Shown: positions 3,568-6,310 of the stretch, in pieces
Layout of the letters: every line of letters begins with the position of its first letter
How positions within the stretch are numbered: the first letter of the stretch is position 1
Virus record (IMG/VR): IMGVR_UViG_3300021185_002756
Location: 1-64,000 of that record
Reading direction: 5' to 3' (one strand)
Length of the DNA: 64,000 nt
Origin: a virus
Notes under the pieces: generated by a model
What the model saw: the letters and a program-made list of their open reading frames with translations, nothing else
What the model was told of the DNA's origin: nothing
Databases searched by the model: none
Program-made: the position numbers and the translations under genes

Positions 3568-3670
3568 TGGCTCTGGGGGTAGGAGTCGAACCTACAAGGT
3601 TAAATATATTGCAGTACATTCAACCACACGGTTAACAGCCGTGCGTGTTTACCAATTTCACCACCCCAGA
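3568..3670 (-). tRNA. tRNA with GUU (Asn) anticodon and long, class II-type variable arm
   Basis: The cloverleaf was folded by hand on the minus strand. The 7-bp acceptor is TCTGGGG/CCCCAGA with discriminator G and encoded CCA (3570-3568). The D arm has a GTG/CAC stem with TTGG. The anticodon stem is CACGG/CCGTG with loop CTGTTAA, so the anticodon is GUU. The T arm is GTAGG-TTCGACT-CCTAC. The variable region is about 31 nt and forms GGTTGAA/TTTAACC. Normal tRNA-Asn has a 4-5 nt variable loop. The D-arm sequence looks Leu-like, while U1-A72, G73 and the anticodon loop look Asn-like. It starts 6 nt after the synthetase-like gene on the same strand. Confidence 0.85.
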
Positions 3671-3676
3671 TTATTC

Positions 3677-4507
3677 TTATACCTTGTTGATTTTTTCTAG
3701 TGCAGGGATCATACGTGTAACACCTATGCCTCCGCCTACTCTTTGAAAGAAGTCAAACTCTAAAAACTTTTCTAGTTCTGCTTCAACTCTTTCCTTACCA
3801 AACAGTTTGAATAGTAACTCTGCATACTCTCCGCCTACAATACTATGGAATGTATCTCTCATCATATCAACATCACATGAACGTTCTGCTGATCCAATAG
3901 TTTCCATACCACCTAGTATAACATCCATCTTCTTTGCAGTATTGCCATCATCATTTCTAGCCATGTTCCAAAATGGGCTTGTTAGTTCGGGGAAGTTTGT
4001 AATAAGTGTTTGACCAAACTGTTCTTCCATCTTTAGTTCGTGTTCTGCTTCCATTTCTACGTCAGTACCGAGTCCAAAGTGTTGTTGCCATTCAGCATAG
4101 GTCTTTTCTGTAATGTTGCCAAAGCCTAAGTATTCACATAGTTCATACTCCATTGCTTTTAGATCATCTACATTACCTGGCATTTCAAATTCAAACATTG
4201 GAAATATTATATCGTGTCTACCTGGAATTGCATTTGGTTCCTGTCTGTAGGAAGTTGAGACACAAAAAAAGCCCTTTGCTGAGGGCTGACTTAGTAATTC
4301 ATGTTCTAACCACATCTGGCCTGTTTGTGGTAGTGGCCAAACATTGCCTGCATAGTTGTAAGTTGCTACATTGAATGGATCTTCGCATGCGGCTAGTATT
4401 GATAATCTGTTTTGTGTGTGTACTTCAAGAAATCCTTTTTCCAAAAAAAATGACCTTAAAAGGCCAACTGTCTCTGTGAATTTACTTGGGTCTATTAGTT
4501 GCGTCAT
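3677..4507 (-). CDS. Core-only class II aminoacyl-tRNA synthetase-like protein (AspRS/AsnRS/AsnA type)
   Basis: This 276-aa protein begins directly with a motif 1-like helix (FFLEKGFLEV). Motif 2 follows (YRQE at residues 87-90, H98, then the FEFE strand), and it ends with motif 3 GGGIGVTR (258-265). These are the ATP-binding motifs of the class II Asp/Asn/Lys group. GGGIG-R also recalls asparagine synthetase AsnA. There is no OB-fold or other anticodon-binding domain. SD AAAGGAAAA precedes ATG 4507. The unusual GUU tRNA lies immediately downstream, so co-expression is likely. It may charge that tRNA, make asparagine, or modify another acceptor; the sequence cannot decide. Confidence 0.8.
   Translation of the reverse strand: MTQLIDPSKFTETVGLLRSFFLEKGFLEVHTQNRLSILAACEDPFNVATYNYAGNVWPLPQTGQMWLEHELLSQPSAKGFFCVSTSYRQEPNAIPGRHDIIFPMFEFEMPGNVDDLKAMEYELCEYLGFGNITEKTYAEWQQHFGLGTDVEMEAEHELKMEEQFGQTLITNFPELTSPFWNMARNDDGNTAKKMDVILGGMETIGSAERSCDVDMMRDTFHSIVGGEYAELLFKLFGKERVEAELEKFLEFDFFQRVGGGIGVTRMIPALEKINKV
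4264..4287 (-). terminator. Terminator-like hairpin inside the synthetase-like gene
   Basis: The minus strand reads AGCCCT-CAGCAA-AGGGCT followed by seven T. This is a textbook intrinsic terminator or attenuator shape lying in frame inside the coding sequence (residues about 72-80). It may be coincidental. Confidence 0.35.
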
Positions 4508-6118: not shown

Positions 6119-6120
6119 AT

Positions 6121-6170
6121 ACGTTCACCCGAGAGGGCGGAAGTAGGCAATCGCTGAAGGAACGCACCTA
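6121..6170 (+). ncRNA. Glutamine riboswitch aptamer (glnA RNA / Downstream-peptide family)
   Basis: The plus strand contains P1 CGTTC (6122-6126) pairing with GAACG (6160-6164). It also has the hairpin CCC-GAGA-GGG, the conserved GCGGAAGTAGG and the CTGAAGGAACGCACC block. These are the consensus elements of the glnA/Downstream-peptide glutamine aptamer. A 37-codon ORF follows 27 nt later. That is the arrangement reported for cyanobacterial and phage members of this RNA class. Confidence 0.9.
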
Positions 6171-6196: not shown

Positions 6197-6310
6197 ATGA
6201 CTTACAGACCATATCAATGGAAGAAGTTTGCTGACGCACGGAAACGTGCTCTAGTTCATAAAATACTGAACTATCGCAAATCGTCTTGCATATGCAAAAA
6301 AGCTAGTTAA
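6197..6310 (+). CDS. 37-aa basic peptide under glutamine riboswitch control
   Basis: ATG 6197 follows a purine-rich SD (AGGGAGGGTGG). The peptide is very basic, with KK, RKR, HK and RK clusters and two Cys near the end. In cyanobacteria, glutamine aptamers control small basic inactivating factors of glutamine synthetase. A similar role here is inferred from the riboswitch and composition, not from alignment. Its last 8 nt overlap the oppositely oriented gene at 6303-6458. Confidence 0.7.
   Translation: MTYRPYQWKKFADARKRALVHKILNYRKSSCICKKAS

Follow-up and report, generated by a model that had tools for sequence, protein, structure and literature searches.

The window, a 64,000-nt stretch of DNA that belongs to a 98-kb virus record with a T4-type clamp loader, carries on its minus strand a synthetase-like gene (3677–4507) followed by a tRNA (body 3571–3670) with an encoded CCA end (3568–3570). 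The stop codon of the gene and the 5′ end of the tRNA are separated by a spacer of only 6 nt (3671–3676). The 276-aa gene product matches the class II (D, K, N) synthetases (PF00152, 58.2 bits) and a PHROG of unknown function (phrog_29758, 435 bits). AlphaFold2 models it as a catalytic core alone (pLDDT 93.1, pTM 0.90), for which the best solved match found by Foldseek is 1x54, an AsnRS with Asn-AMP. Together with alignments, these matches identify the protein as a core-only class IIb synthetase paralogue, confirming a first-pass annotation that had described a class II synthetase-like gene with motifs 1–3 and no anticodon domain, whose end lies 6 nt upstream of the tRNA. The protein showed no second domain, the OB-fold anticodon-binding domain being absent, and no longer ORFs or gene fusions were found in its family.

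The adenylation motifs are all present in the protein, with motif 2 as YRQEP..GRH, the arginine motif as GSAER (R209) and motif 3 as GGGIGVTR, and the key motif residues are invariant in alignments of 34 and 52 sequences of the family. The side-chain site, TGQMWLE (E68), is of the AsnRS type: it lines up with the AsnRS sequences QSSQLYLE / VSGQLxxE rather than with the AspRS sequence SPQLYKQ, and Leu67-Glu68 is invariant, as in AsnRS, where AspRS has a side-chain lysine. AsnA shares this AspRS-type lysine, and its aspartate-type pocket (lysine after SPQL) does not occur in the protein family. Scores against the curated families were far below their cut-offs, at 38.4 versus 342.6 bits for AsnRS (TIGR00457), 19.1 versus 389 bits for archaeal AsnA (PRK06462) and 14.2 versus 286.9 bits for EpmA/GenX; clustering with AsnA, posed as a test in the first-pass annotation, is therefore not seen by curated score. 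A protein of Pithovirus LCPAC304 annotated as Aspartyl/asparaginyl-tRNA synthetase (A0A481Z9R2) matches the model with a TM of 0.93 and 44% identity, so that members of the family may exist in eukaryotic viruses too.

The tRNA was not reported by ARAGORN, which gave no result in the window and mislabels many of the relatives, and tRNAs were therefore detected with Rfam, with a covariance model built for these tRNAs and with a cloverleaf parser without a U33 requirement. The body matches Rfam RF00005 with 56.2 bits, and at minimum energy it folds into a cloverleaf that has anticodon GUU (3634–3636), U1-A72, G73, a Leu-type D arm and a long variable arm, in agreement with the foldable, CCA-encoding tRNA recognized at first pass; 86 distinct relatives were found. 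The variable region has the originally described length of 31 nt, but its stem (3598–3625, minus strand) has 11 bp and a 6-nt loop (CUGCAA) rather than the 7 bp first reported. Across 32 relatives the helices covary strongly: 98.9% of cells are paired, and the covariation score is 0.68 compared to 0.19 for shuffled alignments, with none of 500 shuffles scoring as high. The variable-arm stem, one of the helices in this test, shows two-sided changes in all four pairs tested, so the compensatory changes on which the first reading had been made to depend are present.

To examine linkage independently of the protein, IMG/VR was scanned with a pattern derived from the tRNA alone. Of the 120 matches, 116 had upstream sequence, and in every one of these the gene lay directly upstream. 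Starting from the gene, 172 phage-type loci were collected, 10 of which end too soon after it for the tRNA to be judged; the tRNA is present in about 150 of the remaining 162, mostly within 20 nt of the gene (overlapping its 3′ end in L096, L167 and L177), and 12 are without it. The gene and tRNA thus form a genuine coupled module, obligate in phages, and the coupling proposed at first pass holds. In a tree of the protein, the phage copies fall into two main groups, with cellular clades interspersed among them. No plasmid carriage of the gene was found. The cultured phages P-SSM2, P-SSM5 and P-SSM7 carry the pair, annotated as a 'tRNA ligase' adjoining a 'tRNA-Asn', and in P-SSM7 a tRNA cluster adjoins the gene. 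Searching phage records by blastn with the tRNA as query gave no match. ARAGORN labels the tRNAs of this family in IMG/VR and GenBank phage records as Asp, Glu, Gly or nothing, and the family is therefore systematically mis-annotated. No description of the gene-tRNA pair, of the long variable arm or of an Asn-based pyrimidine route was found in the open-access papers searched.

Several other elements were noted in and around these loci. An Rfam glutamine riboswitch (53 bits) lies at 6120–6168 on the plus strand of the window, followed, after a ribosome-binding-like site, by a 37-aa basic ORF (6197–6310, plus strand). Glutamine riboswitches also occur just after the phage tRNA in L021 (3949–3998) and L088 (5132–5191), which suggests a nitrogen-metabolism cassette. 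Permuted tmRNA genes of alphaproteobacterial type, all four on the minus strand and opposite in orientation to the gene, lie a short way upstream of it in L050 (2570–2933), L052 (2522–2924), L055 (1060–1390) and L079 (2584–2916), hinting at alphaproteobacterial hosts for these relatives.

To compare charging and decoding signals, features were counted in the 86 distinct phage tRNAs and in 78 distinct other tRNAs from the same loci. The GUU anticodon and G73 are present in all 86 phage tRNAs, and U1-A72 in 85. In bacteria, charging identity for Asn consists of the GUU anticodon and G73; the amidotransferase GatCAB, which makes Asn on the tRNA, has U1-A72 as its signal (PMC9976931, PMC4206432). 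The decoding features of an elongator, U33 and a purine at position 37, are not kept at the level of the family: position 37 is a pyrimidine in 67 of the 86, and 7 have C, A or G in place of U33. Both were kept by 78/78 of the other tRNAs, a control set found by ARAGORN and so possibly biased towards U33, though ARAGORN does report pyrimidine-37 tRNAs. The window tRNA itself has U33 and A37, and the argument that this copy is non-decoding is thus made from the family only. The combination of a short variable loop with a tRNA-Asn body does not describe the family either, and by covariance model its nearest cellular relative is tRNA-Leu. Since the Asn signals are fixed, the phage tRNA is best read from its sequence as a Leu body refitted for asparagine charging. 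The variable region ranges from 5 to 39 nt (13–39 nt in 81/86 and ≤7 nt in 5/86 distinct tRNAs), which rules out the variable arm as a general recognition handle and with it the mode of recognition first suggested.

Homologues 50–65% identical to the phage protein were found by scanning GTDB species genomes, in Patescibacteria, Bacteroidota, Rickettsiales, Pasteurella atlantica, Myxococcota, Dependentiae and others. None of the cellular members scanned scores near any curated cut-off, the best AsnA score being 33.6 versus 389 bits (PRK06462), and EpmA scores across members being 14–21 versus 286.9 bits. No dedicated tRNA was found near the gene at 75 cellular copies, and a search for an unlinked partner in 13 carrier genomes returned tRNA-Leu, then tRNA-Ser, as the best covariance-model matches. 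The enzyme can therefore work without a dedicated tRNA.

Clustering of the neighbouring genes placed a pyrE/UMP-synthase-type gene at 21 of 73 cellular loci and pyrD at 17, with pyrimidine neighbours spanning Rickettsiales, Bacteroidota, Pasteurella, Myxococcota and Patescibacteria. A midichloriacean operon has the order gene-pyrF-pyrE-pyrD-prs. The neighbouring OMPdecase (OMP decarboxylase) and DHO_dh (dihydroorotate dehydrogenase) exceed their Pfam cut-offs, and the neighbouring PRTase is a weaker, pyrE-like match. Two phage loci have the same context, with the orders prs-...-pyrF-...-PRTase-gene-tRNA (L200) and pyrD-gene-tRNA (L087); the phage PRTase itself matches no Pfam or NCBIfam family. 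The 98-kb window record, P-SSM2 and P-SSM7 gave no pyrE-like gene, and these phages would therefore rely on host PyrD, PyrE and PyrF. Other neighbours of cellular copies include an argininosuccinate lyase-like gene (L110, L138, L160 and L161), and an arginine dihydrolase-like gene together with a dimeric-type PyrC (L139, genome G018). In seven Patescibacterial copies (L092, L104, L111, L116, L120, L126 and L144), a tRNA-Gln(UUG) lies 1.2–3.3 kb downstream, in a neighbourhood with dihydrouridine synthase-like and DNA polymerase III gamma subunit-like genes.

Carrier genomes were then examined for enzymes of the early pathway. Over cut-off, PyrB (aspartate carbamoyltransferase) was found in 1 of 30 carriers, the CarB large subunit in 2 and DHOD in 22, compared to PyrB, CarB and DHOD in all 14 control genomes. 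PyrC was over cut-off in one carrier by the main model and in none of the 30 by the dimeric model; some Bacteroidota carriers have PyrC-like matches below cut-off, and one carrier (G003) has PyrB, CarB and PyrC. Among 149 genomes of one bacterial order, all 5 carriers are without PyrB, while 137 of the 144 non-carriers have it (p = 1.4e-6). Most of the carriers are metagenome-assembled, which makes single-gene absences weak, and the argument is carried by the order-level contrast and the operons. The family accordingly has both the complementary distribution and the pathway gene context looked for in a replacement of PyrB. A true AsnRS was over cut-off in 16/30 carriers, so that the protein family is not simply the AsnRS of its carriers, and the protein as sole AsnRS of its host can be ruled out there.

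Where CarAB and PyrB, and usually PyrC as well, are absent, this protein is the clear candidate for supplying dihydroorotate. We hypothesize that the gene-tRNA pair is a nucleotide-metabolism module, in which the core enzyme bypasses the chemistry of PyrB and is fed by a host-charged, largely non-decoding tRNA, a reading to which we give slightly better than even chances. The paralogue of the AsnRS catalytic core would replace carbamoyl-phosphate synthetase, PyrB and usually PyrC, probably turning asparagine, bicarbonate and ATP into dihydroorotate. Both ring nitrogens would come from Asn, which would supply N1, C4, C5 and C6 and also N3, possibly through an activated carbamate; TsaC offers an analogy for such chemistry. 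Where PyrC adjoins the gene (L139), the product may instead be carbamoyl-aspartate, which fits better in those carriers that have a PyrC-like protein. For the tRNA, the fixed GUU and the missing anticodon domain of the phage protein make a host synthetase the simplest explanation for charging: host AsnRS, or host non-discriminating AspRS with GatCAB, would load it with Asn. As most tRNAs of the family appear to decode poorly or not at all, this Asn would be withheld from the ribosome and passed to the partner enzyme, still on the tRNA or after its release. The substrate, the product, the charging enzyme and any use of Asn-tRNA by the protein are inferred in this scheme, whereas the linkage, the cloverleaf, the fixed charging signals alongside relaxed decoding signals, the pyrimidine-operon context and the absence of PyrB and CarB are observed. 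A more specific form of it is tRNA-dependent pyrimidine synthesis, in which Asn on the dedicated, host-charged, non-decoding tRNA is the direct substrate that with bicarbonate gives dihydroorotate, bypassing carbamoyl phosphate, and cells use ordinary Asn-tRNA or free Asn; this is possible, though we would not expect it. A tRNA serving a non-translational reaction, one of several options listed at first pass, is now the best fit, given the decay of decoding signals and the pyrimidine context.

The first-pass annotation had favoured a self-contained and perhaps orthogonal charging pair. As a minimal orthogonal AsnRS, the core protein would charge its own tRNA through U1-A72 and G73, and the tRNA would decode AAC/AAU during infection, independently of host AsnRS or anticodon nucleases. 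Such a pair would account for the AsnRS-like fold and side-chain site, the complete adenylation motifs, the obligate linkage and the U33 and A37 of the window tRNA. However, GUU is the most strictly conserved feature of the tRNA, although the protein is without an anticodon domain; the pyrimidine at position 37 (67/86) and the loss of U33 (7/86) would impair decoding; and closely similar cellular enzymes exist without the tRNA, in pyrimidine operons of PyrB-less genomes. An orthogonal decoding pair is therefore less likely than a pyrimidine module, and we consider it improbable. Slightly more doubtful is that a pyrimidine enzyme acting on free Asn is accompanied by an ordinary translational tRNA-Asn, which offsets depletion of Asn or Asn-tRNA. 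This too would agree with the pyrimidine context, and phages often carry tRNAs, as with the cluster adjoining the gene in P-SSM7, but decoding features decay in this tRNA only and not in its 78 neighbours, and all the tRNAs from the tRNA-only scan are tied to one gene.

An asparagine synthetase of the AsnA kind, which would form Asn from Asp, perhaps while bound to the tRNA, and be linked to pyrimidines indirectly, is suggested by archaeal AsnA (3p8t, 1nnh), also a core-only class IIb paralogue and a weak sequence match. Scores of 19–34 bits against AsnA cut-offs over 300, and, at the position of the AspRS side-chain lysine, an invariant leucine that adjoins Glu as it does in AsnRS, make this quite unlikely, and it leaves the missing PyrB and CarB unexplained. 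Least credible is a tRNA that acts as a decoy for host anticodon nucleases, of which tRNAs with GUU anticodons are targets, or that is prone to frameshifting, which loss of purine-37 favours, with a coincidental neighbour gene, since the linkage to one enzyme is obligate in two phage clades and a decoy needs no conserved U1-A72 or G73.

If the pyrimidine module proposed here is correct, it would be a second start to pyrimidine synthesis, from a recycled tRNA-charging enzyme and not from carbamoyl phosphate, present in candidate-phyla bacteria, intracellular Rickettsiales, Bacteroidota and abundant marine phages. It would explain UMP synthesis in genomes that have PyrD/E/F without CarAB and PyrB, assign a role to phage proteins whose only annotation is 'tRNA ligase' or unknown, and provide a tRNA dedicated to nucleotide metabolism.

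The protein resembles AsnRS (AsnS, TIGR00457; 1x54) in its class IIb fold, motifs 1–3, Q..E side-chain site and GSxxR arginine. It differs in having no OB-fold anticodon domain, in its score (38 versus 342.6 bits), in the pyrimidine-operon context of its family, in having CEDP where AsnRS has the EGG flipping loop, and in having T-R instead of E-R in motif 3. Archaeal AsnA (PRK06462; 3p8t, 1nnh) is likewise a class IIb paralogue that consists of the core only, has a similar length and is no aaRS, whereas the phage protein lies far below its cut-offs and has an AsnRS-type rather than Asp-type pocket and a pyrimidine-synthesis context. EpmA/GenX and GluQ-RS are also truncated aaRS cores recruited to non-canonical reactions; the family scores 14–21 bits against the EpmA cut-off of 286.9, and GluQ-RS is a class I enzyme. 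The 'tRNA ligase' and tRNA-Asn of Prochlorococcus phages P-SSM2/P-SSM7 are this very gene-tRNA pair, arranged in the same way, with 67.6% protein identity; the pair is annotated without a role, and its long variable arm and obligate pairing were not found in the papers searched. The CarAB-PyrB-PyrC route has the same place in the pathway, ahead of PyrD/PyrE/PyrF, but its enzymes are unrelated in fold, and carrier genomes mostly have no CarB and PyrB. Finally, tRNA-dependent Asn synthesis by non-discriminating AspRS and GatCAB uses GUU, G73 and U1-A72, the fixed features of the phage tRNA; the ordinary tRNA-Asn of that system serves translation, whereas the phage tRNA is dedicated, Leu-bodied and tied to one enzyme.
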